Source of the DNA: Hydractinia symbiolongicarpus
Taxonomy: Eukaryota; Cnidaria; Hydrozoa; Anthoathecata; Hydractiniidae
Length of the DNA: 64,000 nucleotides
Assembly: GCF_029227915.1 (NCBI RefSeq)
Contig: NC_079878.1
Coordinates: forward strand, 21,415,501 to 21,479,500
Reading direction: 5' to 3'
Shown here one piece after another: positions 3,401 through 63,939 of the stretch (within the stretch, counting starts at the first letter, position 1; every line of letters starts with the position of its first letter). Position numbers and translations under genes: made by a program. The notes under the pieces are model-generated. The model was given only the letters and a program-made list of their open reading frames with translations. It was not told the DNA's origin and did not search any database.

Positions 3401-6400
3401 CCTCCAACGACGAATATTTTCTCTCCGCATACTATAACACCGTGATCCATGCGAGATTTATTCAAATCTGCTAAATCCTGCCATTTGTTTGTCAGTGGAT
3501 CATATATCTCGCAATGCGCAACATCACCAATGCTGCAATAGCCACCGATGGCATAGATTTTGTTGTTTAATACGCCGCCACCGAAATGACTTCTGGGAAA
3601 TTTCATCTGTTGAACGGCCGACCACTCATCCTTCACTGGATCGTATCGTTCAACACATTTTAAAGATGAACCACCACAAGAACCGCCAATGGCGTACAAC
3701 CACCCATCTAACACCACAGCAGATAGCGCCCCTAAAATGTAAAAGTCGTTTTTAATATCTTTTCTTTAAATGAACTTTTTCAGCAAATGCATTTTTGTAT
3801 TCAGTTTTAAAACTTTCTAAAAACTTGAAAAATTATAAGGCCATAAAAAAAATTAAGATTAATGGCACCTTGTCCTCAGAGCTCTTCTAGGTCTATATTC
3901 TTACGAAACAGCTCTATTTATAGGCGTATCAAGTTCTGTGGACGTTGGATTAAGAAAAGGTTTTTTGATATTAAAAGGCAAATGCTTGTAAGTATTTTCA
4001 CCAAAACAAAACGACATACTTTAAGATCATTAAAACTCAGTACTTATGAAACCTTTTATTCAACTACTCCAAGAATATTTTTTTACCTTTGCAAGTTGTT
4101 AACGATGCCACGGATGACCATTTGTCCTGCGCTTGTTCATATTGTTCAACGCACATTAAGTCATGACCGCCACTGCCAATGCCACCTATGCAAAATATGG
4201 AACCGTTTAGAAGAACAACTGCTGGATATTTTCTTGACATATTCAGTGGTGCACATTCATGCCATGCTTTCGTCGTCAACTCGAGCATTTCAACTGTATC
4301 CAGTGAACCAGTTCGATCTAAAGGTGATGTTGTAAAACCAAGGTTAATTTTATCATATCTATTTTTAATTCCCGTGACAAACAGAAAATAACCAAAAGAT
4401 TTTAGTTATAATTATGGCTGACTAACACAAAAAATTTATTTACTGTACTGCAGCAAAAATACACTAGCGTCTAAAGATTAGGCCATGACGAAGATTAAGG
4501 ACAAAGCTTTGGCCAATGCAACCTTGCTTTTTGGGTCTGTAGCATTTTTAATATTAGGATGTTTCTTCAAAAACAGAAACTGAATACTCCAAGATCGATT
4601 TCAATAGGATATAACGAGGCTGGTGCCAATTTTTATAGGGAAGTTTAAAGGTCACCCCCAGCTTCGTAAATATGTCCGTGAGTGCCCGCCTATTCGTTTT
4701 TCAAAGGACGCTATTAAACAATCGCCTTTTGCTTGTTCAAACGATGCTATGACACTGTCTCCATCTCCATATATTATTGCCGTCATATTTTAACAATAAA
4801 ATTTGATTTTAAGTGACGTGTAAGTAAATGTTCAAATGAAATAGGAGTTACTGCGAGTTTTTTGAGACTAAAAGGATATAAGAAAATCGTGCAAAACTTA
4901 CAAGAAAATTCGTATGGAATCTGTAATGATACGTTGTGACAACCTTTTCCCCAAGGCTTTTCTACGCCTATGATATTCTGACGAGACGGACAATATTATA
5001 AGCGTAGAAAATCCCTGGGGACGAGGTTGGTTGTCGTAGACATTTTTATAAAAATGCAACATACTTTCTCCACCTATTACATATATAGCACTTGAAAAGC
5101 TGGCCCTGGGTGCACAGCACACGTGGTTTGTTACTGATCTTCTTTCTGGCACTAGATGATAATCCAGTGCGTTGTATAGATATTCTCGGCAACCTGAATC
5201 GGTTATAATCAACTCCTCCTTTGTAACATTATCAATCAAGAATTTTCTGGTTAGCATGGGAAATCGTATATGGGATAGTAAGTCTTTTAGGAATTCTTTT
5301 CTCGTTTTCGGATCGTGTTTTACCCACTTCAACACGGCCTCGTACACCTCTCCCTCGCAGAGGACATTTAAGTTATTGTGTGATATCAAGCCTACTAAAT
5401 GATCAAATGATAACTGCTGAAAGTCGGGAGAAGTCATAATGACACGAAAGTTTCGCAACCTGTAATCTTCTGCTATTTTTCTCAATTCATCACATCCATA
5501 TTTGTCTGCTAAATAAGCTACACCATAACTGTTACTAGTATCGATATTGTTACGAAGAAAAACGAAACATTCTTTTTGTATCGGGTAAATTCCGAGCATG
5601 TGAGCTGCCGCAAGTATTGCTTCGACATCGCAGGGGGAGAGGGTGATCTCTCCGGTATAACAATATTGTATAATCTTTCTCAATACATTCACATCAATGC
5701 TTTCTAGGAACACTTCGCTGCTTTGATTTTCTTTCATGTCTGATGTAAACATAGCCTTAAAGAAGGAACTTTTAGCAGCTAATACAACCCTATGAGCAGG
5801 AAACCTTTCTTCGTCGTCATATCCTTTTAATGTCACATCGCATAAAAGTTCTTCTTTTTGAAATTTGTGTAAAACATTATGAGTATCTTCATAAAACGTT
5901 TCCTTCTCCATCTTCATCAGGAAAGGAGCATTCACCAAAAATTTCGGTGAGTTCAACCATACCTTACCCATGCGACATGTGCGCGTTAAACAGAAGTGTT
6001 TACCGCCTCCCTCGTCCCGAGACTTTTCTTTTATTAAGCCGGATTTTTACCGTACAAGCCTGGAGAGGAATTCGACTTTTTCTGATGCATTCGAACGTCT
6101 CATTTTAGGCATGTTTTTGCATTATGCTGAATAAGAAAATAAATAAGACTATGTATTCGAACTCAGTGGGTCTACAGGTGTCTCTTTTCGAATGTTACGG
6201 TTTATCACCATAGCAATATGCTGAATATGCGATTTATTTAAGTAATTTCATTGTACTAGTCGGAAGCCTGTAAAAAAATCGCAGAAATATATAGAGGAAT
6301 ATATAGAATAGGTACAGAATAGGAATATATGGAGCGCAATAATTGTTCATCCAATTATTGCGCTCTATATATTCCGAGCATCGCTATTATTATCTAGCGA

Positions 6401-38057: not shown

Positions 38058-39455
38058 CTATAAAATATTACATTTACATCTGCGTCCATTTTTCTTCGAT
38101 TTTTTCTTTAAAGCGCTGATGGCCGCAGTTTCAAACAGGGTCATAACACCAGCTTTCGTCAAAGCAGAACATTCTAGAAAAGCACTAGCCTCGATTTTAC
38201 TGGCTACTTCTTCACCTTCTTCAATCGAGACTGGCTTCTGTTTTGTTGCTTCTAACTCACGCTTCGTGTCTTCGTTGTGTCTCAAGTCCTTTTTATTTCC
38301 ACACAACACAATAGGCACTCCCGGACAAAAATGTTTAATTTCCGGTGCCCATTTTTCAACGGTATTCGACAAACTATCCGGACTGTCAATACTATAGCAG
38401 ATGACAACCACGTCAGCGTCCGGATACATTAGAATTCTCAGTTGGTCGTATTCTTCTTGGCCGGCAGTATCAAACAGTGCAAGTTCAACCTGCAAAAAAT
38501 AGAGGATATTTTACTACCCTTAGCGTATTTCGTATAATGGTATAACTGTTGTATGTTAAGTACATTGACGCTGGACATAACAAGTAATTGATTATTTTTT
38601 TTTATTATTTTTTTGTCTGAGAAAGGACGAGGGGTGAAAAGGGATGATCAAAATAATTATTCATATCCATAAGTGTGAGGAGTATCAATATATTATTTTC
38701 TTTAATTTATAAAAAAAGATGAAAATTTGAAATAAACTTATGGTGAATAAAATGTCTTTTTAAGGAAAGGAACATTATTTTATAAAGTCTTAGTTCGTTG
38801 TGTAGGAAGTTTGGCTAAGCTCGATGCGTCATAACAACACCATTCCTACGCATGCATTTAAAACTTTTTTGTTTTTTTTAATATTTTAATTACTTAGTAG
38901 TCTCCGATTTTTTTTGTGATAAAAAATGATTTAATTTTTTGTCGGTGATGTCATTTTAAGCGCATGCTTAACACCGTTGTTCGCCTCATTTTTTTGTGGT
39001 TCTTAGTTCACATGCGGTTCGAGTTTCAACGAGGTTTAAAATTTTCTTGTTATCACGCTTCAATATGTTCCCTTATTAAGACAAAAAAATTAACGAAACT
39101 GCGAAATGTGTTTTTATGGCAGTCATATATCCGCCATTTTGTTTGTTATTTCCTATTTTTCGCGCGTCGTTTTGTTGTAGAGATACTGACAGTTATTTCA
39201 AACTTTTTAAATAAAACTCGAATTTTAAAGATATAATTATACAACTAAAGATGATGGCTTTTAAACGAAAGATGAATATATATATTTTACCTGTTTGTTT
39301 TCTATTTCCATATCTGCCACGTAGTTATCAAATATTGTAGGAACGTAGTCAGTTGGCATTTCATCTTTCGTGAACACATACAACAAACTTGTTTTACCAC
39401 AAGCGCCATCTCCAACTATAACCAACTTTCTTCGATGAATTTGTTCAGTAGACAT
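38058..39455 (-). CDS. Rho-family small GTPase, 198 residues
   Basis: Exons 39291-39455 and 38058-38489, joined at CAG|gtaaaa ... ttgcag|GTT in phase 0. Nucleotide-binding motifs are intact: P-loop GDGACGKT (15-22), switch [13 protein letters not shown] with effector Thr40 (Thr37 in RhoA), switch [19 protein letters not shown] and ECSA. The Rho-specific insert region is present (NEDTKREL...). The C-terminus is polybasic ([10 protein letters not shown]) followed by CKCNIL, a CAAX box whose last Leu predicts geranylgeranylation. The upstream Cys may be palmitoylated. It is Rho-like by switch I and insert, but diverged ([29 protein letters not shown]), so I give no subfamily. Role: GTP-dependent control of actin at the membrane. 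Confidence 0.93.
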
Positions 39456-43353: not shown

Positions 43354-46300
43354 TCACCTATTGTTTGTATATCTTGGATCACGTGACGAGTCTTCCGTGG
43401 ACGAAGTAGGTGACCTCGTTGTACCAGTTTTACCTGATGTTTGAGTAGTCGAGTTAAAGTCTGTTGTTGTTTGCCCACGAGTAGTATTAGGGCTACGTAT
43501 ATCGCCAGAAGTTATCGTTCTCTCTGAGTTGGGCGCACTTTCAGTGTAAGACGAGCCCTCTGAAGATGCACTGTCTATTATGTCAGAGCCATTTTGAGCA
43601 TCTATACTTGTAGTGGGTTTGTTATTGTCTTCATCTTCTTCTGATATCGGGGAAATATTTCTTCTTCTTCTAGCATTTGCTTTGTTTCGTCTATTACCAG
43701 ATTTTTGTTTATTTTCTAGGTAAGGATCCCACTCCATTGAGGTAGCTTCGTTCAAATTTGCCGGCATTATCCTGTCATTTCGCCTGTCACTTATCGGACT
43801 GTCGTCATCCGAATTTGGAGGTCTTCTCCGCAGACGATAAGGTTCGCGTCGGGTAGACTCTGGAGAAGATTCCGAAGAATCCGATTTTTCTGGAGTTCTA
43901 TTTTTATCATTATACATACTCTTTGGGATCGGGGATTTTTCTCGTTTCGGACGCGGTTGATACGACCGCATTCGTCTTGGTGTTGTCTGAGTACTTGGTT
44001 CGGAAGTATTCGGGTATGAAGTAACTGTGGATCCGTAAATAGATTCAGCACTTGTATCTGGTCTTTCTTTTTCTTTTGTGAGGAAATGGTAAGGTTGAAC
44101 GTAGTCTTTGAAGAGCAAAGCTTTTTCTCTCAGTAACATATTCTTTGGGTGTTGAGCATTGCTCATCAATTTTCTCCATCCAGGACTATTTCCAGGTTCT
44201 GGAGAACTCTAAAAACGGAATCATTTTGTATATCAGACAAAGTGGATGATAATACCAAAGAAAAAGAAAAGTAGAGTGGTTACCGATCTTGATGAGGAGG
44301 AAGATGTTGTTCCAGGTGTTACTGGACCGCGTTGTGGATCCTAGAAATTAATATTATATTAAAACCAAGTCATCAAACTCAGCCCTGACTCCAGGACTAC
44401 TCACACCTTCTTGGCGTAAAGGTATTACTTTTATTTATACCCTTCAAAGAAGTTTACAATGAAAGTTTGATCTTGTTCTTTTACTGACCTGATTAATTTT
44501 GCTTTTATCAACCAAGTTATCACTTGTAGGATCTGTTTCAGGAGCTGATGATGTTTCGTTCAGTATATCTAATTACAAGAAAATTATTTTTATATTATTT
44601 TTCTCATAAAGCGACAGCTCTTTGACTTTTCCCCCTTTTTTTTATGATGATTATTATTTTTTTTATTTTGTTTGGTTGTTGTTGTTGTTGTTGTTGTTGT
44701 GGTTGCTTTCTTTACTAACAAAAACAATGTAGTTTTAAGTTTCTAGCCTGATTTTTTAAACAACAACAAAAATTCATATAAAATAGTCCCTTTTATCTGA
44801 AGTTTATTTATATTCAGCATATACGTGCTAGTTTACGTCAAGTACCAGTGCTAGGCATTTGCGGGATTGTTTCTTTTAGTTTTTCCTTTGATATTTACAT
44901 TGTTTGATTGTTCTGTATTTTTATGTTGTTGTTTTTTTAGCATATGTTTGTGCTGCGCTTTCTATTTCTTGTGGTTGGATTTTTGTAGTTAGTGCATGTG
45001 GTTTCTAACTCGTCTCCAGTGCTCTTTTTTCACTTCATGATTTTGGGATTGCGTTCTTCCCAATGTCAAAAAGTTAAAAAAAGAGCACGGGCGACGAGGT
45101 TGCGAGTCTAGTGTGTATATATCTTGTTTTCATGTGCGTGGGTTTAAGAGAAAGCATCTCCTCTAAAAAGGCACAACTAGACCAAGCCATTCTTTAACTC
45201 CTGCACCTCTTGACACATCATATGTAGAATCCACGTTATGTAGTTTTAGTGTATGACCAAGTAAGTTTTGTAAAAGGACTTCTGGCATATTCCCTTTTTC
45301 TTCACAACTAGGATTTGGAATTTTACCTTAAAAAGTACAACACAACTCAATTACAATACGAATAATATAAAAAAGTTATCGTCAGCTCTGTCGCCGTCAA
45401 CTCTCCGTTTGTCGGATCCAATGTAAATTTTTAATTTTGTGTATTCTGTTCTATTGACATTGTCGTATAACCTCGTTCCCAACGCCTATTGTCTCTTTTC
45501 TATATCGGTGTGGTCTCTCCGTCCAGACATAAAAAGTAACAACGCCCCCTGGGAACGAGGTTGATTGCTGAATGAATTCCAGGTTATGTAAATCAATAAT
45601 TAACATAATTACGACCTTTGACCTCGTGAAATATTTACGTCCAAATATAATTGTCACGTTTAATAGAAATTGTTCAACAAAAAATCGTCTCCGTCAACAA
45701 AGACATAAACTTGTTTGCCACAATGACCTTTATTTATGACCTATTGTCTTTTTGTTAAAATTAGTTTGTTTAGACATTTTAGTGTTATCAAGAAGCACGT
45801 CCGATGAAAACACTAATTTTGGGTCCGTCTGGATGTATGATTTAATCGGACCATGCTGCCGTTCTACAAAACCTCGACGGTAGTCGAGAGGTGTTGGCAC
45901 ATGTTCAATCATGACATCGTTTTTCGATTGTGTCTACTTTGTTGATACTTGTTATTTGCTGCGCAATGTTTAAATGTCAGTTGTATAAAAATGGTAGACT
46001 AGCTGTGCAATTCACTGCAGTTGTGTGTTATAAGGGGATATAAAATCACAAGTAAAAAAAAAATATAAACGTAAACAAACAAACATTCTACCTCTGTGAT
46101 CATCTTCTTCTTTTTTCCTAAAACAATAGAGAAAAAAATAAGATTAACATATACCACGTAGTTGCATCATTGTCTCGTTAACCTTCACCGAAAAGGTGTG
46201 GCGCATGGCCTTGTGTTATAGAGTTCGATTCGTAATCACAAGGCTCGCGGTTCGATCTACAGCGCGGGCATGTTTACCAAGTGCCTTTACTAGAGTTACG

Positions 46301-49300
46301 GGTTAACCCATATCATTTAAAAGAAAATGGGTAACCAATGCCGGTGTATACCTAATGTATGCAATCTACGTTCAAAACACAGGACCCACATTGCTAACAG
46401 TTTCCAACACTGAAGTGGCTGTATAAGTATTAGGGATAATAATAATAATACTTTAAAATATCGTATCTCAGTGCGTGTGAAAATGACTCACCTTTTTCTT
46501 CTGCAACACAAACAACAAATGCAGCAGCAACATAGCAACAGTAACAACAACAACAGCAACAACAAGAGTAGAATCCATAACCATTTGCGATCTTTCTTTT
46601 TGCTTTCTTGCTTGCTTTTACCAGGTGCTTTGCTTGGTCCCGGTGGTGGTGGTGCTTCCGTGGTAGTGGTAGTTGTAGAGGTTGTCGTGGTTGTTGTTGT
46701 GGTCGTGGTTGTATCAGGTTTCTTCTCTTCTTCTTTTGGTTTCTCCTCCTTCTTCGGTTTTTCTTCCGCTTTTGGCTTTTCTTCCTTAGGTTCTTTATTA
46801 ACTTCAATACCGCTACTGCCGCCCTTACTAGTCTGCTCCTCAGTTTTTTCATTCCCACCCTTGATAACAACCCCACCCTTAACGCTTTCGCCATCAGCAG
46901 TGGGTTTCTTATCAACAACCGCAGGCGGCTCCACGACAGCCTACAAACATAAGAATTGAATTCAGAACTCATTTTTTCAAAACGAAATCATAAATACAGG
47001 GTGAATGGAACACGTTTTATACCTTTCCGGAAGTATCAACCAAGACGCCGAAGGTTGTTAGATGCGTACATTCACAGGTGGTTATAGAAGCGTTTGAAAA
47101 TATCTTCTTGCAGCCATGGTCTTGCCATGATTCCCTTAAAAATTTAAATCAAAGTATTATTTTGTATCTCTATATTATTAGCCGTCATCTGTCTATTTTT
47201 CTGTCTGTTGCGAAAACAAGAAATGCGATATATAAAGGACGGCAACCCCGTAACTTTTTCCACGGGTTGATGACTAGTTAAAATATAATTATGTTTGCAC
47301 ATTTCCAATGTTCATGATCACACAGTGTAAAGTAAATTTAAAAGAATTGTTTTACACATATTTGGTAACAAAATCCGCAGATCAAAACCACAACTTCGAC
47401 CCCAGGGTATATTGTATCTTTTCGACACAGGGGCGGCAAACATGTTCGTATCGCCGTTTCGGATGTCAGGAAAATGCAAGATGACTTGGAGACGAGTTGA
47501 TTAAAATCAATGTCGCCATTACTTACTCTGTTCGATTCCAGAAAGAACATTGATGTGGTAAATTCTTCTGCGACAACTAAACATTGGAAAATAAATTTAT
47601 TTACATCCATTTAATGTATTTATCTTACTTATGATTCAACCTTGTTTCCAGGTCTCCGCCTGTGACATCTTCTGATGGGACAGCTCAGTAATATTACTAA
47701 TACAAGCCGTTCCGTCGGATGATGACATAAGCGTAGAATATCCCTGGGGACGAGGTTTACTTATGACTCTGTTTTAACTAGTTGCTTCTCACATCGTCAT
47801 TGGCGAAGGTGATAGAGACAGGGAGCTTCATTTCGTCTCCAAGATGAGGAACAACATTCATTGATAAAAGTTGCGATCCGACCACTACTGGGTTGTCATC
47901 TACTATTTCCTCTTCATTGCTAAATAGAAAATGAAAACAAAGTTGTTATCACATTCTTTGCAATAGAGTGCTATTCGTGACATCGCAATTCGTTTCCAGG
48001 TCTTTTACGAAAAAGAAGCACCAAAAACTTACTCGTCTTCTTTGTGAAACCTCTGTATCACAGCAGCTGTACGAAATCTTAAGAAAGTCACATGAATCGT
48101 TTTCATGGGTTCTAAATTATAAAATGTAACATTATATTACTGTTTTAGCATAAACTCTTGCTTCACCTAGCCTGGTATCTGCTTTAAAACGGAACTAGAA
48201 ATTTCCAAAACCTGATTCGCTTATAGGTGTTTTCGTTTTTTCGAAAATTGCAGTTCCGTCCTGAAGGAGAAATCGGGCTAGGTGAAGCAAGAGATCAAAT
48301 TTTTTTCTGCAGACAGGAATGGAAGACCTTAAAATAAAACTAATAAAAAAAAGGCTCACATATTTCGAATGCTTAGATAGCATGATTTTTATTCCTGATC
48401 CGATTTGAAGTGGATACGGAAATATATATCTATAATATGTTCAGCGTGTTTTTTGTTTACCGTGCCGATGTTTGTTAAAAACGGAACACAACAACTTCAA
48501 ATTTCAAAACTCGACAAATTACTGCTTTGACGTTGTTGACGTATGGCAATTTTCGTCATTGTTAGTTGAAATAAAAAAATAAGAAAAATATGGAATAATA
48601 TTTGACTTTGTTACCCAAAACTATAATTAGTTAAACAACCCATTCTGTTTTAACGTAAACATGAGATTTTAAAAGCGTCGGAAAACGTTAAGTGGTAGTA
48701 AGTGAGACCGTTACCAAATTTTGTACTCGGAATTGACGACGGCAGAGAAATTCTTTCAATTCCACACTTCCAACTGGATAGTCTAGGATCGTTTTTATAA
48801 TCAGGAAATGAAACCTCTCCATTTTTCTTTTCAAGTAATTGTTCAACCAAAATAATCCGAACTTGCATCACTAGTAAGAAAAGAAAAAATGATGCTATCA
48901 ACACTAAACAAGGGAAGAAAGTTTCGAAATTTTCTTTATATAGTTTATGAAACTGACATAAGAATTCTCGTGAGATTACAATTAAGAGAATTTGGTCACG
49001 GCATTTACACCGTAGCATTACTCAAACACTAACATACTTGGCTATAAATTTGACAGTCATCATGGATAATCAGAAACCCCTACGTCAGTTCACAGAAAAT
49101 GCGGCATTTTCGTTTGGTTAACTACCCCACGACAGAGCAATAAATTACATCGTTTTCAAATCTACAATCTTAGACAAAATATTGAGTCGAAGGCAGTTTT
49201 TTCCTCATTTTTTAAATATGGATAAAAGTGTCAAACATTCAATGCGCTGCAGCAGTCTGCAAAGTCGCTTTTGCACGCGCTTAGGCAGACAGCGCTGAAA

Positions 49301-52300
49301 AGTTGCTAGTCACATTCTGTAGCACACCGCACACTTCCCCTTTCCCAACCCTTGAATAACAATTCTGCTTTATACGGGCTTGCTTTATTTTATGTTCTCA
49401 GTAAACACCAAACCATTAATGCTTAGAAAGTGACATAAAAAGAAAAGTGGACGTTTTCGCTTGAAAATAAAGAAGAGTTGCTTTCTAATCTCCAGCTTTT
49501 TAAATTGAAGATTTGACACCTGTCCACGCTATTAAATAAACGTGTTCGCCCACTATGTAGGTCCATTTACCACACAGAGAGACGTTAAGCCTTACTAATA
49601 TTCTTGGTGATCATGGTCTGTTGGAATTTTGCGTTGTATCTTGTGAACAATTTTGCGATTGTGTTGCCGTACATCTCAATAGCGGATATGTAACTCATCA
49701 ACAGGTCATGTTTCTGCATACTCTGCAAGTAAATAAATATATTTGTGTAAATAAAAGATGTTATCACATCTCAATACATTTCGTTTTCTTAATTTTTTCC
49801 AACTCATATTATCCGATAGGTATTAGCGGAGAATTTTCGGGGTGTCTTGCCTGAAAAATTTAGAATACATATTCCACCTTCCAGCTAATAAGAGCCTTTT
49901 GAATACTCAGTGAACCGGATAAATAACAACTACTGGAGATTCTGAACACGGAATATTTACAAGTAAAAAGTGACTTTAAGAACCCTTCAAAAATTCCGAC
50001 CGCTTTTTTGCTGATTCCCTAAATGTGTTGGATTTTCTGAGAAAACTCTCCGGGTTTTAAAACAGAGAGGTTTTTGTCAGTCTGTGTTTTGCGCGAAAAA
50101 AATCTTCAGTGCTTCGTGTTTTACACGATAAAAATCTTCGCCGCTCTATTTTTTACACGATAGAAATCTTCGCCGCTCCGTGTTTTATACAATAGAAATC
50201 TTCGCCGCTTCATATTTTACACGACAGAAATCTTTGCCGCTCCGTGTTTTGTACGATAGAAATCTTCGTCGCTCCGTGTTTTATACGATAGAAATCTTCG
50301 CCGCTCCGTATTTTACACGATAGAAATCTTCGCCGCTCCGTGTTTTATACAATAGAAATCTTCGTCGCTTCATATTTTACACAATAGAAATCTTTGCCGC
50401 TCCGTGTTTTATACGATAGAAATCTTCGTCACTCCGTGTTTTATACGATAAAAATCTTCGTCACTCCGTGTTTTATACGATAGAAATCTTCGCCGCTCCG
50501 TGTTTTATACGATAGAAATTTTCGCCGCTCCGTGTTTTACACGATAGAAATCTTCGGCGCTCCGTGTTTTACCGGAAAAAAGCTTCACCGCTCTGTGATG
50601 TACACAAAAAAAAAGCTTCACCGCTCTGTGTTTTACAGAATAGATTGCTTTGCTGCTTATTATTGCTTATTAAATTTTCGTGAAACAAAGAAATGAAGAA
50701 GTAATATAGACATACTTTTTGTTTGTGAATCACTCTCCAATCATCGCTATCTTCGTTTACTTTGCTGTCGGGGCCGTCATTTTCGTTTCGTAACTGCTGC
50801 AAATGCTAAAATATACCAAGAGTTAATGAGATATCTATATTATAATAATAGCCGTCGTCTGTCTGTCTCTGCGCGACCCCCCGCTGAGTTAGAAAATCGT
50901 GCTACGGAAACACGAATATCAAATGCGATATATTCTTATCCCCTTTGTTGCCACGGGTAAATTTAAAGGACGGGCGACCCCGTGGATTTTTCCACGGGTA
51001 AACGACTAGTCTCTTATAATATGTGATTCAGATATTGTTTGAACTATTCATGTCATATACGCCTTTTTATAAGCAACAAAAAATTTGAGGTTCGGCGTTA
51101 ATTAATAATAATTCTCTTGAATTATTCTTCGAAGGTTTCTGAGTTGTTGGTTGTCTACTTACTTAAAAGTACCAAATTCACTTGTTCCCAAGTTGACTAG
51201 TGCGCCAATCAAAATCAAGCTATGGTTTTAATCACGTGTTTTTATAGAAATTACACCTTTAGAAGAAGAAATGTCTTGGAAACTATTGCTGTCTTTAAAA
51301 TCTTCGCTTTTGCCAACCTCAACCACAGAGCTCTTTGACGTGAACTGGAACTTTTTCTCAAAGAGCTCTGGGAACGAGAATACAGATTTGCCATTTTTTC
51401 TTTGTTTTATATGTCAGAGTGGGCTGTTGCTTAGAAGTTGCTCGTAAGAGTAGAAAAGCCCTGGGAAAGATGTTTTTCGAGAATAATGATTTGCCTCCAC
51501 GAATAGTTATGGCGTAGGTAGGATAAAAAATAAATATAAAAATAGACGAAACGTATGAATGACTAAAATTAAAATCAATAAAAATGTCAAAACCTTGTGG
51601 ACTTAATTTTTTTATGACCTATAGATTTACTCGGATAAGTTGCCCTTTTACTTACTCGAATTGAATGTTTCCATTCCATCTCATTAGCTTCATCAAGAAC
51701 AGCGCTAGATGCTTGTAGGAACTCCTGAAAAACGAAAATTTCTTTAGTGCGCAGAAATTGAAATTGCAAAAAGTTTTTATAAAAGTTATTAAGCAGTTAG
51801 GCGACCACATCGGCGACCTTGAATAAGTAAATTGAATAGTGAAACAGTGATCTCGCAATCCCCAGGGTCCCTTGGCCCCTAAGCTGATATTACGGAGTGG
51901 TTATCAATTTAATCAAAAAAGGCAAAATGCCCTGAAAACGAAGTTGCTTTTGATTTCATTTACCTCTACTTCTTGTATGGTCGGGCCGTTCTTTTTGTTT
52001 TTCGCATCTTTTAACAACTCATCTGTAATATCCAAACTTATCATGATGTCTCCACCGAACATCGGAGCGCGTTGTTTGCTATTCTCCTCCTCATAGGTGA
52101 AAATAAGGTCATCGCCTTCTTTTGGTGGGTGTTCTTTTTCTTTCTCTTCTTCTAAGGTAGGTTTCTTTTCTTCTTCCGGTTTTTTCTCCTCTGCTGGCTT
52201 CTTTGGCTCCTCTGGCTTCTTTACTTCAATCGGTTTAACTTCCTCCGGTTTTTTCTCCTCAACCGGTTTAACGTCCTCCGGTTTTTTCTCCTCGACCGGT

Positions 52301-55300
52301 TTAACTTCCTCCGGTTTTTTCTCTTCGACCGGTTTCTTATCTTCTGGTTTTTTATCCACTGGAGCACCGCTTTCGATTTTGACGGCTTCTGTTTTGTTGA
52401 TGACGGTGATTGATATTTCTGGTTTTGGTTTTTTATCTTTTGCTTCATTGTTCACTTCTTGCGGCTTCTCTGTCGGTTTTTTCTCTTCTTTAGGAGTTCC
52501 CTCAGACTCTGTTTCGTCATCAACATCTTGATAATCCGGATCGATTGTAGGAGCCATCGGTTTTGTTGTTGCCGGTACATTTGCTGTAGTCACTGCCGCA
52601 GCTTTTGTTGTTTCTGTAGTTGTTGTTGTTAATGGTGTTGTTGGTGGTGGTGACGATGTCGAAGTTGTAGTTGCCAACGTCGTTGCCATGGTTGTCGTAG
52701 TTGTTGTTGTTGTTGTCGTTGTGGTAGTTGGCGTAATAGGTGGAGCACTAGATGTTCCTACTTCATCGCTTGTGCCAGCTTGAGGTATCTGCGCCTCGCC
52801 TATCACTTTAGAACCTTGTTTTGAAAGCAGAGAGTCGTTATTTGAGTCTGGAATTTCTGGTGTGCTTTTTGGCTTACATTCGTTTTCGTCGCCGTTACAC
52901 TTTATTAAGACGTTTGTTTGAACATTAGTTTTGACGTTAGAGTTTACATTATGTTGTGTTTCTGCCGTGGAATTGACTTTTATATGCACAATATGTTTAG
53001 TCTCCGCGGGATTGTCTTTAGAAGCAGCATCCAGATTTAAGTCTTTTGGAGTCTCTTCAAATTCAATATTGGTAACTTTTAAATTTCCGCTTTTTACGAC
53101 ATGTCCAGTGGGAACGTCAACGATCGTCGGCTTTTCTACGACTTTGTGATACATCACTGGTTTGTACGCTTTTATATTAGCTGTTGGTTTGGATGTTCTT
53201 AAAAATTTCTTGTTTTTTACAACTAAGGCGGTTTGTTTGCGAACGTTGGGATCTTTGATTTTGTCAACGAAAAAGTTAGCTGGAGTATCGTCAGAAATAA
53301 AATCCGACATTGTCGGTGTTTTACTTCTTCCGATACCGCTCATAACAAAATGGTGATGTTTTACATCAGGAATTTCAGTCAATGTGGCTTGTCCATAAAG
53401 TTGTGTGAAAGGTTCTGATCTCCTTTGTTTGCTTGAATTTTCTTTCAACTTGTCTTCTTCCCCTAAACTTCTCTTAGAAACCGTTAAACTTGTATTCTCT
53501 GCAGAAATTTCTGATTCCAACTGTAACAAACTGGTAATGGGATCGCCTTGTTTATTAACCTCCCTTTTACCCTTTCTGTCAAACATACCACTTTCAAACA
53601 AATGTTCAAAATCGTCATCAGTTTCAATGGAACGTCTTTTCCTTGCCGCTTTCACATGACTTTGCCTTTTACTCGCGCCGCCCGTTCTTTTATTTACAGA
53701 GAACCAATCATTGTCGTTGTTTGGATGTGTAACTCGATTAGCTTCGTGAAACAGACTCTCGAAATCATCAGAATCATATGTGTGGTCATGTAAAAGTTCA
53801 CCCATTTTATCTCCGAAACGTTTACGTCTGATACTTTTTAATTGTTGTTTAGCACTTTTTAACATCTCAGCCTTGTTTGGACGACTTGTCCGGTCCCGTC
53901 TACTTTCGTATATAGGCACACCATTTGGCTCTAACTGATCATCTGCGTAGAAAGGTGCTATATCTTTGTGGTCTAGCGGCTGTGACGCTTGTTTTTCCGA
54001 CAAAACATAGGACTCTGTCTTGGCGCCATTTTTATCCTGTGAAAGGCCAACATATGTATGCACGTTTTTGTCAATGTTATTACTGTGAAAGTGTGATTCT
54101 TGTTGCTGAACCGTTTCGTCGCCATTCGGCTCATATTTTACACTCGCTATATTTGCCGGCTGTTCTGACACACTCGGAATTTCTTTCATTTCTATTTTTT
54201 TGGAATCTGGAGGTAAATTCGAAAATTGTTGCGAAACCTGTGCCACTTTATATGGCTGTACGCCCTGGACGGGAGATATTTCTCCCCACGCTGATGTTGC
54301 ATGATGGGAAGGATCACTTTCTACTCTGTTTGGAGATTGAGCCCCTAGGTCTCCTATAGGCTTTGGTTGACTCCAAAAGACATGAGTGCTTTGTTTGACA
54401 GAGTCCATTGGGTTTTTGTTGTTACTGTCGGTAATTCTATCATACTCAACGGAGATTGGTTTGGGAAGAGCTTGTGACGTCACTCGAAAATGTGAACCCT
54501 CCTTCTGCGAAGGTATATCTTCATTGACCTTGTCAGAGTCGAATTTTGGATTTGGATATCGTACGCTACTGAAACCTTTTGAAGTTTTTGGTCTTGATGA
54601 TTCAACTAAATTTGCTTTCGATGCAATAGATTTGTACAAGGATAGCAAGTCTGGCTGGTTTGTTTTTCCAAGCAAAGCAGATAAACCCATCTGACGTAAA
54701 TACGCTTTCAATTTATCAGGAGATAGACTCTCCTTCGTTGAGCCTGATTTGAAATAATGAAGTTGCTCCTCCTCCTCGGATGGCTTAGCTGCTTTATGTG
54801 GTTCAGGTTCAGCATCCTGCAGGTCATTGATCAATTGAAATTCTTTGGGAGGTTTTGAACCATAGGTATCCACCACGGTCAGCTGCAATAGACGGTCGAT
54901 AATAGACGCAGAAGTCACATCTGGCGTGTTGACTCCTGATGACGTAAGCAATTGGACCTTTAAAAGAAAAAAACATATGCTAAACTGTTATATAATTTCC
55001 CCTTTTCCCATAGTTTGTGCTTTCTCAAAAAAATCGGACTGTTCTCACAGAATTATCAACCCCAGAACTCGGCATTCATGTTAAAAATTCAAGTTTAAGC
55101 CCCGGTCTTTGAAGCAGAGTTAGAGTCGTAGTTGTGAAGATATTTGTAGTAATGGCCTACCTCACGAAGAAGAGATTCGTACTTGTATGTTACACAGTCA
55201 CTAAAATCAGGTATCGTCCACGACGCTTGCTTTGTCTCGGTTCCACTGCACTGCCGAGTTGTCAATCCTACAAGAACACATGTGCTTAATTTCTTTCTTT

Positions 55301-58300
55301 ACTTTAGTGCAATAGCTAAACTTTGGAGCACAAAGAAACCCTAACGTTTATATATTCAAGTTAAACTTAACTTCTATTTGATCGTAATATTTCGAGAAAG
55401 GATAACAAACAAGAGCTTACCACTCGCTTCCCTTGGACAAGGTATGCTTACAAAGGTACCATAGACACCGAGTGGCCAGTGAACATCAAAATTGTATTCA
55501 GGTGGACAAACCAAATTGTATCCTAAAATAAATTTTTGTATCAAAATTAACGTTTCACCAGGGGTTGGAACATGAATTTTATGGAATGAACCCAGATAAT
55601 GTAAATTCGAAGTTCTGAGCTCTGAGACGTGAATCTAGTTACGATACTAAAATTTAATTGTGGGAAGTTTGTCCATGAATACCTTTACTGTTCGTAAACT
55701 TAAATCCTCGCACATCGATGGTGAGTCTTCCCGCTATTGGTTCCTCGTGATTACGTAATTCACCCTTTCGCAGCACGTCTACCATCTTTTGCAACAACAC
55801 TTTCGGATTAGTGGATTTATCAGCCGTAATGTTAAATACAGCAACTAGAATTTTAGGCCTAAAAGGAAAACATTAAGAACTCGTGAACAATCTCTAGTTT
55901 TAAAACAATCTCGATCCCAGGACCCAGTGATAGACAAAAGTCCTGGAGACAAGGTTGGGTTTGAAGCAGTCGCTAACTCTAAGAAACCGACAGTGGAGTT
56001 CAAGACTGAAACAATATTCCTATTATGAATCAGTAGAAAATAATAAACTCACTTAAATGCAATCACTTCAACATATTTAAACCCTTCCAGATTTCCATAC
56101 AACCCAGCAATCTAAAATACGTTTATCGGGTTATATCGGAAAAAAGAAGAAAATATTTTGTTACGACAGAAATTTCAAGTAATCGAGACATCTATGTCTC
56201 ATTTATTTTAATTACAGCCATAAATATTTTAATTTTTGTTGAAGTTTAACGTACCATGCTTCGTAGGGTTTCGGCAAAGTTTAAAAATTCTAAGGATTCA
56301 TTATCCACCATTTCATCTTTGTATCGTTCGTTAGTGATATTCAACCAAACTGTATATTGACGATCTAAAAAAATCAAATGGAGAAGAATGGAGAAAATCT
56401 TCTTTTTTTTAAAGTTCTTTAAGAATATTCGATGAATTGACTGTTCCCGCTAACCGCTACTTTAGAAGAAGTTAACTGTATTTGGAAAGCCATTTCACTG
56501 TTTCTTCGTTTGTGGCACAACAGTACGAAGAAACATAGCTCGGAGCGTTCCCCTAAAATCTTTGTGATAAAGGCCCCCTTGTGCGCGAATGGAATAATTT
56601 TCAATTTCTATAAACATCAGATGCAGATTGGAATTAAAGCGTACTCGACTTACCCCCACCCCTAAGACATCAAATCTGTTCTTAGTCAAAGATTAAAGAC
56701 AAGTCGAACGAGCAATACTGTCTGCGGACACGTTCTGTTGCTTAAACGAGAGTTTTTCCTCTCGTTTAAGCCATAGAAATAAGGCTTATATAAGGACTCT
56801 AATATATAAACGTTAGAAGTAAAAAGGTTCAATATAAACTGAGACTATCCAGGAGAATTAAGTACGTAACTAAGTAACGGGTAGTTTCAACGTCCTTGGA
56901 GATTCCATTGTATAGCATTGCTCTAACTTGCTTGCATGCCACACAAGGCCATTAGCGGTCAGTACATGGCACTAAATGGGTTGACAACACTCTATTTAAT
57001 TTGCGCCGGAATGGGGACTCGAACGTGGAATCTTATGATTGCGAGTCGAATGCGCTACCACTACACCATTCCCACCTATACCATTACCAATAAAATTAAC
57101 TGAGCGTTGTGCGATAATAATATACGTTTTAAATGAGGAGTCTTTATTACCTGTTGGTAGCAACCCCGGAATGGACGTACGCTCTAAAATAAACACAAGA
57201 AAAACTTTAATTATTTAATTAAGGTAATGAAACTAAAAACAAAATCTGAAGACGCTAAAAAATGCATTATGCAACAACTTTTAGAGAAAACTTAACTAGC
57301 GCCCTTCTTTAACGCCTAAATACAACTTACTCTCGCTTATGTCCAGAACATCAGGGCGTTCGACAAATGCCAACATAGATTGCAACCTTCCAGCCTTCAC
57401 AGCTCTACTTGCGCATTTTCCATTTTTATAACATTGTACGGAATAACATCTTTTACCAAGAAGAAACGCAGCATCACAAAATAAATCGGCGCAACATAAA
57501 CTTAAACAAGCGTGGAAACCAGGCGTTAATCCCCTAAAGGTGTATATACCAGCTTTCTGTCCACCAATCAGAACGTGATTCTTCATTACTTTGTTATGCT
57601 GACAATGGCGTGTCAAACTGTCCGGTACATTGGGCTCTTCCCCGTCTTGTTTTTCATTGCTTTCTTTCTTAGCGGTTTTCTCGTACAATCTTTGCCGGTC
57701 ACGATCAAATTTCCACGATAAATAACGTTCTTGATCTCTCTGCATTTGCAGTAAATTTTCATGTTTTTTAGAAATTTTTAATTTCTCCTTACCAGCTATG
57801 TCTCGCTTTTTGATGACGTAAGCAAGTTGCGATGGTAACGTTGCTTGGCGCGAAGCGGGAATCATTTGACATTTTTCGAAGCTATAGCAAGATACAGTGT
57901 AACACGTTTTTTCTACCATGAACGAAACATCACAGAGCTTGTCCTTACAACACAAATCAACACATTGGCGCATGTCCCCGATCTTTCCATAATCGTAGAA
58001 ATCTCCTGAATCTGGTCCGTATTTTAGTGATACAGATGTAAATATTCGCGCAGGAAAGCATTTATCGCTTTTTACAATAACAGGAGGTTTCGCTGTTAAC
58101 AAATTATTTTGTTCGCTAAAAAATAACTCCGCTTTGCTAGTTTGGTCTTTTTGAGAATCTTTTTGTATGATAACCCGTTTATCGCCCGATTTATTTCGGA
58201 TCGTAGCACGTGGTAACTTGAACTGCTGTCTAACTAAAGGATTAATGAAAGTCCGTTCTTGAGCGGAAACATCTTTGTAAAAATGGGGAGTTATGCGATA

Positions 58301-59839
58301 GGCTAGCGGTAGTGTCTGACTTGGTGGACTCTTCATGAATGTTTTTAGAGCTTGAGTGTTTGTGTCCTTTAAACGAAGTTTGTGATGAGTGACGTAAGCT
58401 AGTTGAGGATTTAAATTGACACTCTTTGCTGGAACAGGACGGCAAAGAAACTGGTTGTTGCAACTCACTAAATAACAAATCCCTTTCGCCATGAAGGCTA
58501 CATTGCATCTTACTTCGTTGCAGCAAAATTGAATGCATTGTGATATATCTTTTACTGTACCGACTTTCTTGAACTGACCGGCTTCTATTCCGGCGTTCAA
58601 TGTTTGATCTCGAAGTACACGCCCGGCATTGCACGTCCAATCTCCAGATCTCGGATACAGCGGAGAGGCTAAACAAATAATCGGCTATGTATATACTGTG
58701 AAATAGAGAGAATGTTTGGTTCGGTAATTCTTCAAAATTATTTTAATTCTTAATGAAAAATAGGCGTTCCAAAACCTTAACTAGGATTAACAACCCTTTT
58801 TTTGTTTTAACTTTTTTAACTCCATCTTAGTTAGTAAGGGAATCACATGTGCATCATAAGAAATAGCGAACTAAGCAAATTAATTACTTTTTGTGATTTT
58901 CGCGAATTTTATCCACATTCTGTATGAAATATTCCAGAGTGGTCAATTATCAAAAAAAAAGCAATTCGAGCAAGTTCAATTAAAGGCCACCTTGTCTTAA
59001 TAGCCTTGGGATAAATCACCATTGCGAAAAACTGGTAGAAAAAACTTTAAAATGTTTCATTCGCGAAAAAAGAAACTTAAAGCTAACATTGCACAAATAA
59101 CAGAGCCAAAAAGAAAACAGTTTTTAAAAATACAAATATATAACACGAGAAAAAAATAGTATCGAAGTGTCTTTGCTACAGGAAAACCGAAAACCCGGTG
59201 CTGGATTACCTTTAGCTTGGGTTTTCTCGAATACATTGTACTGCAGCAAACATGTTTTGAAAGCATACACAACAACAACCAGATTTTCAGTAGATTCAAA
59301 ACACAAACAATGGCACGCTGCATGAATTCAGCATTTTTTTCCTTAACACCATTCAGAAATGATTTGCAGCTAGCTCACTCAGCTGTATTTGCTAACTTGC
59401 ATCTGTTTTGCACTTTATTTAAGATTTATTAGACCATTCGAGATTGTCAGAAAGAGAAAAAAAGCATCACTTTTGTATTTTTAATGCCGTCCCCAACCTC
59501 GTTCCAAAAATCTTTTAAAAAATTAAAAGCAGCGCTCCGTAATAGCAGTTCAGGGGCCAAGAGACCCTGTGTTCGAGGATATCTGTCCGCGAATTACTAA
59601 AACCCTGAAAATCAAAATATTAACATAAGCAACTTCAACACCAGGGGCCTCTTTAAAGAAAAAGAGGTCCTAGGATCGAGGTTTTTACTCGACATTATTC
59701 TTTTTTTTTAATTAACTAAATAAATAAACAAATCAATGAATATCACTGTACCTTGGAAAAGATTGAAAAGTGTGATAAATATTGTGTATTGTATCCATGT
59801 TGTTAAAATGACTTTCTTTAATTTTACGTGCACCGACAT
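43354..59839 (-). CDS. MANSC-SEA-HormR-GAIN/GPS single-pass surface protein, 2427 residues
   Basis: Twenty-two coding exons, all phases consistent: 59752-59839, 57331-58668, 57151-57183, 56255-56364, 56053-56111, 55683-55858, 55421-55522, 55161-55267, 51964-54957, 51656-51724, 50716-50805, 49596-49722, 48715-48870, 48033-48111, 47793-47919, 47527-47576, 47023-47134, 46492-46940, 46092-46117, 44489-44568, 44284-44340, 43354-44208. Domains: signal peptide 1-29; three MANSC-like 41-122, 233-315, 385-467; SEA-like about 489-600; HormR about 602-671; disordered 672-1669; GAIN 1670-1939 with GPS and HL/T cleavage site 1927/1928; stalk; one membrane helix from about 2059; tail 2090-2427. HormR plus GAIN is typical of adhesion GPCRs, but the seven-helix part is absent. 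Predicted cell-surface adhesion or mechanosensing protein, self-cleaved and held non-covalently. The role is inference. Confidence 0.87.
45006..45102. repeat. Foldback element, family A, in GAIN-gene intron
   Basis: Ends taactcgtctccagtgctc and gagcacgggcgacgaggttg are inverted; inner ttttttcactt / agttaaaaaaa. Confidence 0.75.
45469..45563. repeat. Foldback element, family A, in GAIN-gene intron
   Basis: Ends aacctcgttcccaacgcc and gccccctgggaacgaggttg are inverted. The centre resembles the 21324 copy (tatatcgg). Confidence 0.8.
46190..46425 (+). repeat. tRNA-derived SINE in intron 18-19
   Basis: The tRNA-like head gtggcgcatggccttgtg ... aatcacaaggctcg, cggttcgatct (B-box-like) is followed by a non-tRNA body (cccatatcattt, atgccggtgtatacctaatg). 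It occupies most of the intron. Confidence 0.6.
46492..46940 (-). other. Exon 18: stalk and single transmembrane helix
   Basis: Starts AVVEPPAVVDKK directly after the GPS C-terminal strand. Then come Lys/Glu/Pro repeats (EEKPKAEEKPKKEEKP), a Thr tract, PPPPGPSK and KKKDRK. The membrane helix has the form W-L-W-I, thirteen Leu, then CCCCICCLCC and RRKR. The juxtamembrane Cys are likely palmitoylated. The Leu tract is encoded by a trinucleotide-rich stretch. No second hydrophobic segment follows in the tail exons. Confidence 0.85.
47167..47280. repeat. Dispersed repeat family B, copy 3
   Basis: tctatattattagccgtcat, gatatataaaggacgg, ccccgtaactttttccacgg, gttgatgactagtt. In the intron between the two GPS exons. 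Confidence 0.75.
47391..47499. repeat. Foldback element, family A, between the GPS exons
   Basis: Ends caacttcgaccccagggt and acttggagacgagttg are inverted; inner atattgtatcttttc / gaaaatgcaagat partly paired. It ends 28 bases from the GPS exon 47527-47576. Confidence 0.65.
47638..47757. repeat. Foldback element, family A, in GAIN-gene intron
   Basis: Ends caaccttgtttccaggtct and tccctggggacgaggttt. The right inner arm ataagcgtagaatat matches the 4940 and 10674 copies. It fills nearly all of a 216-base intron. Confidence 0.75.
48155..48293. repeat. 139-bp element with perfect 18-bp inverted ends
   Basis: ctcttgcttcacctagcc at the left and its exact reverse complement at the right. Inner pairs include ttttaaaacggaact-like and agttccgtcc. 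It differs from families A and B, and sits in the intron between exons 13 and 14. Confidence 0.8.
50081..50645. repeat. 32-bp minisatellite, about 17 copies
   Basis: Unit ctccgtgttttatacgatag aaatcttcgccg, with variants (catattttacac, ttcgtcac). It fills over half of the intron between exons 11 and 12 of the GAIN gene. Confidence 0.9.
50832..51010. repeat. Dispersed repeat family B, copy 4
   Basis: tctatattataataatagcc, gtctgtctgtctctgcgcga, then ttaaaggacgggcgaccccg, tggatttttccacgggtaaa, cgactagt. Longer than the other copies through an internal insertion with a second ccacgggtaaat. Confidence 0.75.
51314..51379. repeat. Foldback element, family A (short)
   Basis: Ends caacctcaaccacagagctc and gagctctgggaacgag are inverted. 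Confidence 0.65.
51846..51945. repeat. Foldback element, family A (partial), next to exon 9
   Basis: Left tcgcaatccccagggtccct, inner aagctgatattacggagtgg, right atgccctgaaaacgaagttg. It ends 19 bases from the exon 9 donor. Confidence 0.55.
51964..54957 (-). other. Exon 9: 998-residue disordered insert between HormR and GAIN
   Basis: One 2994-base exon, phase 0 at both ends. It is Ser/Pro/Lys/Asp-rich. Furin-like sites: RRKR at about 1048-1051, RKRR at 1110-1113, KQRR at 1181-1184, with KR at 1166. Between them are two related acidic blocks (DSDDFESLFHEANR and TDDDFEHLFESGMF). A Thr tract (about 1411-1475, mucin-type O-glycosylation likely) is followed by tandem VEEKKPEEVKP-like units (about 1558-1640). 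No cysteine-rich fold is seen. Confidence 0.7.
55161..55522 (-). other. Exons 7-8: HormR domain
   Basis: Four cysteines in the hormone-receptor domain order: LVCPPEYNFDVHWPLGVYGT, VSIPCPRE, TTRQCSGT, then W-x-I-P-D-F-S-D-C. In adhesion GPCRs this module directly precedes GAIN. Here it is separated from GAIN by exon 9. Confidence 0.85.
55683..56364 (-). other. Exons 4-6: SEA-like domain
   Basis: YTVWLNITNERYKDEMVDN, then SLEFLNFAETLRSM, LYGNLEGFKYVEVIAF, then KILVAVFNI and a KGEL-type C-terminal strand. This follows the SEA order (strand, helices, FxxVxVxxF, central strand). The self-cleaving GSVVV is replaced by KPKILVAV, so autoproteolysis here is unlikely. Confidence 0.65.
55905..55957. 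repeat. Foldback element, family A (minimal)
   Basis: Ends caatctcgatcccaggac and gtcctggagacaaggttg with only about 17 bases between. In the SEA-region intron. Confidence 0.65.
56870..57075 (-). repeat. tRNA-derived SINE in intron 3-4
   Basis: On the minus strand: A box TGGTGTAGTGG and B box GTTCGAGTC are both exact. A seven-base pair ggaatgg/ccattcc closes the head, but the T stem does not pair, so it is not a working tRNA. The body continues to about 56870 (acccatttagtgccatgtac). Confidence 0.65.
57331..58668 (-). other. Exon 2: three tandem MANSC-like domains
   Basis: Each domain starts with a lone Cys (CNAGRV, CFPARIF, CQHNKVM) and has the core C-x3-CC-x4-C-(D/N)-(V/A)-(S/A)-F then C-Y-x-V-x-C and a last Cys before (S/A)-x-LA(Y/F)V. 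Core examples: CIQFCCNEVRCNVAF, CVDLCCKDKLCDVSF, CLSLCCADLFCDAAF. This is the MANSC/MANEC pattern known from HAI-1, LRP11 and KIAA0319. Spacers 1-2 (about 110 residues) and 2-3 (about 70) are Lys/Gln-rich. All three lie in one exon, unlike the highly split remainder. Confidence 0.75.
59493..59583. repeat. Foldback element, family A, in intron 1
   Basis: Left ccaacctcgttccaaaaatc, inner gcgctccgtaatagcag, right gagaccctgtgttcgagga. Confidence 0.6.
59630..59682. repeat. Foldback element, family A (minimal), in intron 1
   Basis: Ends caacttcaacaccaggggcc and ggtcctaggatcgaggtt with inner tcttta/aaaga pairing. Confidence 0.7.
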
Positions 59840-62416: not shown

Positions 62417-63939
62417 TTACGAGAAATGTTTTCGAGCTGTATCAACCTTCCCATACGCTATCAAAGCATCCTTCAAAACCTGATTCGTTGCACAGCTACC
62501 TCCACCATCTTTCCAAGCTAATAACATTTGAAACGCTTTTTCTGCAATGTCATCATAATTTATATGGTCCTTATGAATCATTTCGATTTTAGAATTTGGT
62601 ACTTTGAGTTTTCGTCCTAGATGTTTCCAATAAGTGGCGATATCTTTGGATAGTTCTTCCAATGTTTCTTCACTGGGCTGCGCACTTAAGGTGAGATCAA
62701 CCGTGCAGTATTTTTTGCTAGGACTTGGTGTCATAGGCGTATCCCTATTTCTCTGGTTGTCACCTGATAAGGAAATAAGAAGCGTAAAGTAGAACTTTTC
62801 AGCGACAAAAATATCCCCCTTAGAAATAGCTACAGGCTTATGATTTTTGCTACGTCCAAATTTTGATTGGTTGATAAAAAAGGTACTTTGCTGTCGAAAA
62901 TATTAAAATCGTTATATTATTACTATTTTTCAGGATGAAAACCCTTTAACACAAAATTAATAAGCAAAATAACCAATCAAATACAGTAATATTATTAAGC
63001 TGAAAATTTCTACGGTTTTTGTCGACATCCTTTCGCCGTTAAACGCAATTTCTGGTCAATTGTTGCTCCGCGACGGAAATATAATTCTCAAAGTGGAGTG
63101 GTCACGAGTTATAGCTAGTAGACAGCATGTGCAAGGGTCAATAAAAATCAAAAATGTCAAAACAATTTTAGACATACTTTTTTCGAAATAAGCAACAATA
63201 AAAATGAAAACTGTACAACAAAAATTCGGAGGTACGAAAATAAAAAGGAAGTTTAATATTTTTATTACAAAAGAATTACCATCAAGTGCCAACTGCCTTG
63301 TAACATAGCCAACGTGAAAATGTAATACCAATTTGTAACATTTACACAACACACTGGCGAAAATTTTTTTATGGTCGGAAATTTTCACGAAAAAAATTGG
63401 GCGATTCAAAAAAACTAATTTTTTTTTTGCCTTTTCGCGAATAATCAAAAATTTAATTTCGCCGAAATATACTTTTTTTGAATAATTTTTTTCTGCCTAA
63501 ACATATACAAGTACTAACCACACACGCATTTTCTAGTAATATTTTTTATTTTTGAAATTCCCGTAGAATAAAATTAGAATAAACTTTTAAAATTCGCGGA
63601 ATTTATTTTAACGGTTTGTCAAAAAAACATTTTGCGAACCTAATTTCGAGAATTTTCGAAAGGGTTAGCTAAATTTTACTTAATTTCCCAGTTAAAACGT
63701 TTTAGCATAAGTACAACTTCTTTTCAATTTCTCAGTGTTAATAAAATAATAAAATGTTATCGAAATTGGAAACATTTTTTGGCGACATATAAAAAACCAG
63801 TCGTTCTTCCCACAATTCCACTAACTTAGCTGATCGCGAAAACTTTCTTTTGGGTAAGGAAATAAAAATCACAGACCTTGCTCACTCAACCTTCTTTTCA
63901 ATTGATCAGCTGATTCTGTTACAGGCTTAGGAGTTGTAT
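62417..63939 (-). CDS. Death-domain protein, C-terminal part (5' end beyond window)
   Basis: Two exons visible: 63877-63939 and terminal 62417-62763, joined at CAAG|gtctgt ... atcag|GTGAC, with phase kept. About 136 residues. The Thr/Pro/Ser-rich linker (TPKPVTESADQLKRRL, RDTPMTPSPSKKY) leads to a death domain of about 85 residues: ELSKDIATYWKHLGRKLKVP, then KIEMIHKDHINYDDIAEKAF, QMLLAWKDGGGSCATNQVL and KDALIAYGK. The Trp in the first helix and the L-x-W-K-D-x-x-G motif are family-typical. The domain mediates homotypic assembly in apoptosis/NF-kB-type signalling. It is C-terminal here. The rest of the protein lies to the right, so its class (receptor, adaptor, UNC5- or ankyrin-like) cannot be told. 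Confidence 0.8.

Follow-up and report, generated by a model that had tools for sequence, protein, structure and literature searches.

Self-cleavage of the GAIN domain is usually explained by a tethered agonist that acts on a seven-helix (7TM) core. ADGRG6 (GPR126) is a 7TM protein with CUB and PTX domains, a SEA domain directly before HormR-GAIN, and an ectodomain that is processed by furin at a site in the SEA domain. The suREJ and polycystin-1-like proteins carry REJ and PLAT domains and, in most cases, 11 helices; they are not known to have a HormR, MANSC or SEA domain. KIAA0319 and KIAA0319L are type I single-pass proteins with PKD repeats and one MANSC domain, and are not known to have a GAIN domain. 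The Drosophila Cirl gene produces a one-helix (1TM) isoform by intron retention. PMC13197933 describes GAIN domains without a 7TM core in suREJ, in polycystin-1-like proteins and in a 1TM variant of the Drosophila latrophilin homologue Cirl, there an isoform of a 7TM gene.

Our reading, which we favor with some reservation on the strength of the sequence, is that a gene in the 64-kb stretch of DNA analyzed here (the window) encodes a dedicated, conserved, single-pass non-GPCR receptor with a GAIN domain and GPS, probably of a cnidarian lineage, that would be self-cleaved and perhaps also cut by furin. The HormR and GAIN/GPS regions of the protein align with those of ADGRB2 and ADGRB3 (BAI2 and BAI3), but it has one helix rather than seven, three MANSC domains and a SEA domain, an insertion of about 930 residues in GAIN subdomain A (GAIN-A), and a long stalk. 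As in ADGRG6, the SEA domain stands directly before HormR-GAIN, with MANSC domains in the place of CUB and PTX. Like suREJ and the polycystin-1-like proteins, it has a GAIN domain outside adhesion GPCRs; a Pfam search of the window product at E 0.05 found no REJ, PLAT or PKD domain. A MANSC-like N-terminal domain (PF23597) is common to it and KIAA0319/KIAA0319L. It resembles Cirl 1TM in being a single-pass form of adhesion-GPCR type; the Cirl gene also makes a 7TM receptor, whereas no 7TM exons were found in the 64 kb around the window gene, and its helix and tail recur in a relative, P0002. The initial annotation named suREJ1 as the single-pass precedent known to it. We accept this as a GAIN precedent but not as the sole one, the Cirl 1TM variant described in PMC13197933 being another. 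Searches of open-licence PMC papers gave no description of the order MANSC-SEA-HormR-GAIN-1TM, which is weak evidence of absence.

Gene structure

We rebuilt the gene from 22 exons on the minus strand (59839-43354), chosen by phase and GT/AG sites. In this model, the start codon is at 59839 and the stop codon ends at 43354; all 21 introns run GT...AG, and the joined reading frame is open over 2427 residues. As predicted from splice sites and protein comparison, the gene is one spliced ORF, and its domain order is leader, three MANSC domains, SEA, HormR, GAIN with an insertion and GPS, stalk, one helix and a conserved tail. Length, cleavage site (Leu1927/Thr1928), start and end are exactly those of the initial annotation.

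Homologue searches with a composite lacking exon 13 as the query gave two long relatives, P0001 (2395 aa, E 4e-278) and P0002 (2284 aa, E 8e-267). Comparison with P0001 revealed exon 13 (48870-48715), which we included because P0001 shows a gap without it; all Pfam figures given here are for the final 2427-residue product, and the composite models without exon 13 are superseded. By tblastn, the relatives matched 13 of the 22 exons (2, 4-10, 12, 13, 15, 17 and 22), including the last one. Exons 1, 3, 11, 14, 16 and 18-21 are short or of low complexity and are placed by their splice sites, with additional backing from protein alignment for exons 11, 14 and 16. Two first exons were considered:

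59752..59839, minus strand: exon 1, with the start codon and a probable signal peptide; its phase-1 donor joins 58668 (...NLFQ-ASPLYP)
59210-59323, minus strand: alternative first exon; leader hydropathy peak 2.29

The choice between them is two-sided. The leader at 59323-59210 is more hydrophobic, that of exon 1 having a Kyte-Doolittle peak of 1.58, just under the 1.6 cut-off; the 59839 start joins the first MANSC domain more compactly, as in P0002. The alternative exon has a strong signal peptide of its own (MQRAIVCVLNLLKIWLLLCMLS...), which suggests an alternative promoter or a chance ORF. Also left out was a 120-bp cassette at 45326-45207, between exons 19 and 20. It is open, in phase and flanked by splice sites, and was dropped because it has no counterpart in P0001 or P0002; it could be an alternative exon that places 40 residues in the juxtamembrane tail. 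A GAIN-like fragment at 51231-51413 was rejected, as it no longer fits into the order of the exons with 11 and 12 in position.

A minisatellite at 50084-50644, in the intron that separates exons 11 and 12, repeats a 32-bp unit 17.5 times with 84% matches. A tRNA-like stretch with A-box and B-box was seen by eye at 56999-57080 (minus strand), in the intron that follows exon 3; ARAGORN found no tRNA genes, this stretch included, and it is perhaps a tRNA-derived SINE. Upstream of the gene lies a Death-domain ORF (62420-62902, minus strand; PF00531, 1.1e-8). Downstream on the same strand are a Ras-family GTPase exon at 38061-38510 (PF00071, 1e-30; Rho-like by eye) and BTB-BACK and Kelch ORFs at 3121-6046.

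MANSC, SEA and HormR domains

The N-terminal part of the ectodomain is made of the following features:

58376..58633, minus strand: MANSC-like domain 1 (KIAA0319_N/MANEC), exon 2; tblastn of P0005 and Pfam
57809..58063, minus strand: MANSC-like domain 2, exon 2; tblastn of P0005, KIAA0319_N in three stretches
57353..57610, minus strand: MANSC-like domain 3, exon 2 (57331-58668); best KIAA0319_N stretch, aa 383-468; tblastn of P0002 and P0005
55683..56364, minus strand: SEA domain, exons 4-6 (56255-56364, 56053-56111, 55683-55858); Pfam SEA 4e-8, above its cut-off, aa 489-587
55161..55522, minus strand: HormR (HRM) domain, exons 7-8 (55421-55522, 55161-55267); alignment with the HormR of ADGRB2/ADGRB3, HRM sub-threshold

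KIAA0319_N (PF23597) matches in three stretches at 2.2e-31, with 108 bits against a cut-off of 27, and MANEC at 1.3e-8, above the Pfam cut-off. The SEA region aligns with P0001 and P0002 without gaps. A G-S-V-V-V-type motif marks the self-cleaving, mucin-type SEA domains. By eye, this motif is absent from the SEA domains of all three proteins, which read KPKILVAV in the window, RPNKVIAI in P0001 and KPNKVVAV in P0002.

The HormR domain called in the initial annotation aligns with the crystal chains of ADGRB2 and ADGRB3, but its HRM match (PF02793; E 3.4e-4, 21.4 bits) stays below the Pfam cut-off of 26.2. Its four cysteines are invariant across the window protein, P0001 and P0002. We then compared profile A3, made from the SEA-HormR-GAIN-GPS block of these three proteins, with PDB sequences. 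The top matches were ADGRB2 (8oek, E 5e-25) and ADGRB3 (4dlo, E 1e-23); in both, HormR and the first half of GAIN form one aligned stretch and the GPS end a second. For the next matches, CELSR1, latrophilin-1, ADGRL3 and ADGRG6, the best stretch is confined to the GPS end. The match to PTH1R is weak and covers HormR alone (E 0.009). Because A3 matches the HormR-GAIN of ADGRB2 and ADGRB3, we take this region to be of the adhesion-GPCR type despite the weak HRM score. Domain surveys may miss the gene, since an HRM E value of 3.4e-4 fails both the Pfam cut-off and the 1e-5 used in PMC12716839.

GAIN domain, insertion and predicted cleavage

The GAIN domain and GPS are laid out as follows:

54859..54903, minus strand: GAIN-A helix 1 (IIDRLLQLTVVDTYG), at the start of exon 9; aligned with ADGRB3, conserved
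52063..54858, minus strand: low-complexity (K/E/S/P/T-rich) insertion of about 930 residues between GAIN-A helices 1 and 2, within one 2994-bp exon
53818..53829, minus strand: furin-type motif RRKR, aa 1048-1051
53632..53643, minus strand: furin-type motif RKRR, aa 1110-1113, at a place in the insertion similar to that of RKKR-S in P0001
47793..52062, minus strand: remaining GAIN, end of exon 9 and exons 10-15; Pfam GAIN and alignment
51656-51724, 50716-50805, 49596-49722, 48715-48870, 48033-48111 and 47793-47919, minus strand: exons 10-15, GAIN part
47023..47576, minus strand: GPS, exons 16-17 (47527-47576, 47023-47134); CSFW...GC...CECTHL/TTFG, with the slash at the cut; Pfam GPS and residue comparison

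The initial annotation described a complete GAIN domain with an HL/T triad, and this holds. GPS (PF01825) matches at 3e-10 (40.9 bits, cut-off 22.5). GAIN (PF16489) matches at 4.5e-9 with 36.5 bits over the full-length product and 40.4 without the insertion (cut-off 26.5). Both subdomains are covered: of the 210 profile positions, the best stretch spans 12-70 in the full product and 64-206 in the insertion-free block. HLT is at residues 1926-1928, and the predicted cut, Leu1927/Thr1928, falls between 47059 and 47058.

The insertion separates helix 1 (IIDRLLQLT) from helix 2 (MFGGDIMISLDI), where ADGRB3 has a short loop. All five proteins compared have an insertion at this place, the four relatives with 804 (P0001), 871 (P0002), 855 (P0004) and 568 (P0005) residues. 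Each of the five insertions contains at least one R-x-[KR]-R motif, and none was found in the rest of the window protein's ectodomain. By shuffling, the chance of the motif count was 0.005 for the window, 0.010 for P0002, 0.009 for P0004, 0.044 for P0005 and 0.26 for P0001, whose count taken alone is not above chance; the five values are not independent because the sequences are related.

According to PMC13062082, cleaving and non-cleaving GAIN domains are separated by a Phe that stacks on the GPS His and by a conserved Gly, and the non-cleaving residues are Ser876 and Asn893 in B2 and Leu821 in B3. The window protein, P0001 and P0002 all have HLT, the Phe (CSFW, CGFW and CAFW) and a Gly before the Cys. 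At the same places, B2 and B3 have Ser and Leu, respectively, for the Phe, and B2 has Asn for the Gly. In an ADGRL3-like protein from a fish, used as a control, the Phe is present but the Gly is replaced by Asp, and the Gly is therefore the weaker indicator of cleavage. In its GPS residues, the window protein is nearer to latrophilin than to B2/B3. The initial annotation had left several interpretations side by side; because the extra cleavage residues of PMC13062082 are present, we favor its cleavable adhesion sensor. The insertion, the furin-type motifs and the Phe and Gly residues are additions to what it had described.

Stalk, membrane helix and cytoplasmic tail

Three features follow the GPS:

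46584..46940, minus strand: part of the stalk, exon 18, Lys/Glu-rich and then a Thr run; from sequence
46503..46583, minus strand: single transmembrane helix (WLWILLLL...CCCCICCLCC); hydropathy
43354..46117, minus strand: cytoplasmic tail and stop, exons 19-22 (46092-46117, 44489-44568, 44284-44340, 43354-44208); conserved blocks

By residue count, the stalk runs for 131 residues, from Thr1928 to residue 2058, and not for 120 as first annotated; in P0002 it has 78. Its length bears on cleavage. In PMC12488864, GAIN cleavage of ADGRE2 drops from 45% to 10% when a spacer is placed between the domain and the membrane. A 1TM truncation of ADGRE2 also gets to the surface and is still able to cleave, to an extent that could not be quantified. 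The spacer effect makes the stalks of 131 and 78 residues count against efficient cleavage, and the protein could be an adhesion receptor with a folded but uncut GAIN that the stalk keeps away from the membrane. In a comparison of the His, Thr, Phe and Gly singled out in PMC13062082, these residues stand in all three proteins, unlike in the non-cleaving B2/B3, and we consider an uncut receptor improbable.

At a Kyte-Doolittle cut-off of 1.6, the helix that follows the stalk is the one strong segment of the window product; the third MANSC domain, which is cysteine-rich, contains a borderline hydrophobic segment. In P0002, there is a leader, and a single helix follows the GPS. For the fish ADGRL3-like control, six hydropathy peaks were obtained across the 7TM region. 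The P0001 model lacks a helix and repeats a tail segment where the helix is expected, so that it looks faulty; the one-helix feature is thus based on the window and P0002.

We then searched the 64-kb window for 7TM exons with the 7TM regions of two adhesion GPCRs and found none (best tblastn E 0.029, best HMM E 0.1). Used at full length, the same two receptors hit the GPS exon with E values of 9e-5 and 4e-5, and a comparison of one 7TM region with the other gives 8e-81. Nor did Pfam at E 0.05 find a 7tm family in the 2427-residue product. The single-pass anchor proposed in the initial annotation is borne out by the one helix after the GPS, its recurrence in P0002 and the lack of 7TM exons within the window, where neither tblastn nor HMM gave a seven-helix exon set that could be joined to the GPS. 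These searches speak to the idea that the gene is a 1TM splice isoform or remnant of an adhesion-GPCR gene with its 7TM exons elsewhere, for which the Cirl variant in PMC13197933 is a precedent and with which an adhesion-GPCR-like HormR-GAIN would agree. We regard it as quite improbable: the 64 kb give no 7TM signal while the controls match, the GPS-to-stalk intron is just 82 bp, the helix and tail are found in P0002 too, and what lies downstream on the same strand is Ras-family and BTB-Kelch ORFs.

The tail has 342 residues with the conserved blocks LVDKS, EKALLF.DY.QPY.FL, MEWDPY and RNISPISEE. Its identity to P0001 is 67% over 49 aa and 37% over 246, and to P0002 36% over 269. Conservation of these blocks speaks for a dedicated protein and against a truncated receptor. 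It also weighs against a reading as a shed or structural adhesion protein, with GAIN and furin cuts that only mature or release the ectodomain (matrix, mucus, cnidocyte) and a membrane piece that has no part in signaling. The furin-type motifs are in keeping with shedding, and the Thr-rich, Lys/Glu-rich stalk and very long low-complexity insertion resemble mucin-like spacers, but long tail blocks kept in the window protein, P0001 and P0002 are unexpected for a passive anchor. We hold a shed protein to be unlikely.

Relatives and origin

Here, a relative or orthologue is a protein with shared order and similarity. The homologue searches listed 4 proteins of 7740 candidates, 4 of 7992 and 5 of 7988; in the latter two, scoring was limited to those candidates with the most words in common with the query. 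Because relatives may be missed through limits on length and the sampling of words, the phyletic range is a lower bound. The adhesion GPCRs P0006 and P0007 served as controls.

P0001 and P0002 have the same domain order in one chain. With the insertion left out, the SEA-HormR-GAIN-GPS block has 537 residues in each of the three proteins, and in an alignment of 541 columns the identity to the window is 51% for P0001 and 50% for P0002. Since this set of domains recurs in single chains of two other proteins, the combination is not a chance one. P0005, a partial relative from the sea anemone Actinostola, has a model that stops before the GPS. In the shared region, its identity is 33% to the window protein, 31% to P0001 and 30% to P0002; P0001 and P0002 are 56% identical to the window and 79% to each other. 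This close relative from Actinostola, together with the animal-type domains of the spliced genes in the window, makes a cnidarian lineage for the gene family probable, as judged by sequence comparison. P0003 (2525 residues), for which Pfam gives MANSC-like domains but neither GAIN nor SEA, is possibly a distant MANSC-rich relative and was left aside in the comparisons.

A single helix with HormR-GAIN could also be what an ancestral GAIN protein looked like before fusion to the 7TM core, an option raised in the initial annotation. Each of the three hits for which a species is given comes from an animal (sea anemone, fish and nematode), and PMC12716839 places HRM, GAIN and 7TM already in filastereans and choanoflagellates and traces the HRM-GAIN-7TM module back to the common ancestor of filastereans and choanozoans. 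We find an ancestral form scarcely credible; given that date, it is more likely that the 7TM part was lost or swapped, or that the protein was re-assembled.

Discussion

The reading we favor remains a dedicated single-pass receptor. From established GAIN biology, the GAIN domain would fold in the ER and undergo self-cleavage between Leu1927 and Thr1928. The large GAIN-A loop may be cut by a furin-type protease, and non-covalent contacts would keep the pieces together in one receptor at the surface. A matrix or cell-surface ligand could be bound through the MANSC and HormR region. Pulling or ligand binding would then free the N-terminal fragment and leave the one-helix fragment, whose conserved cytoplasmic motifs may serve signaling or cytoskeletal coupling. 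With no 7TM bundle in cis, the Stachel-like strand TTFGVLV is probably the last GAIN strand and not a GPCR agonist.

A bolder version can be offered only tentatively. The proteins might form a probably pan-cnidarian family with HormR-GAIN but no GPCR, in which a furin-cut, disordered loop of about 570-930 residues and the GPS self-cut make a three-piece, non-covalent mechanosensor or release switch, and the one-helix stub signals through its conserved tail. If true, this would set apart what GAIN cleavage does mechanically from Stachel agonism. Conserved cleavage residues and a Stachel-like strand on a one-helix protein would offer a natural test of cleavage without a GPCR, and the self-cutting module may be used here without an attached G-protein receptor.
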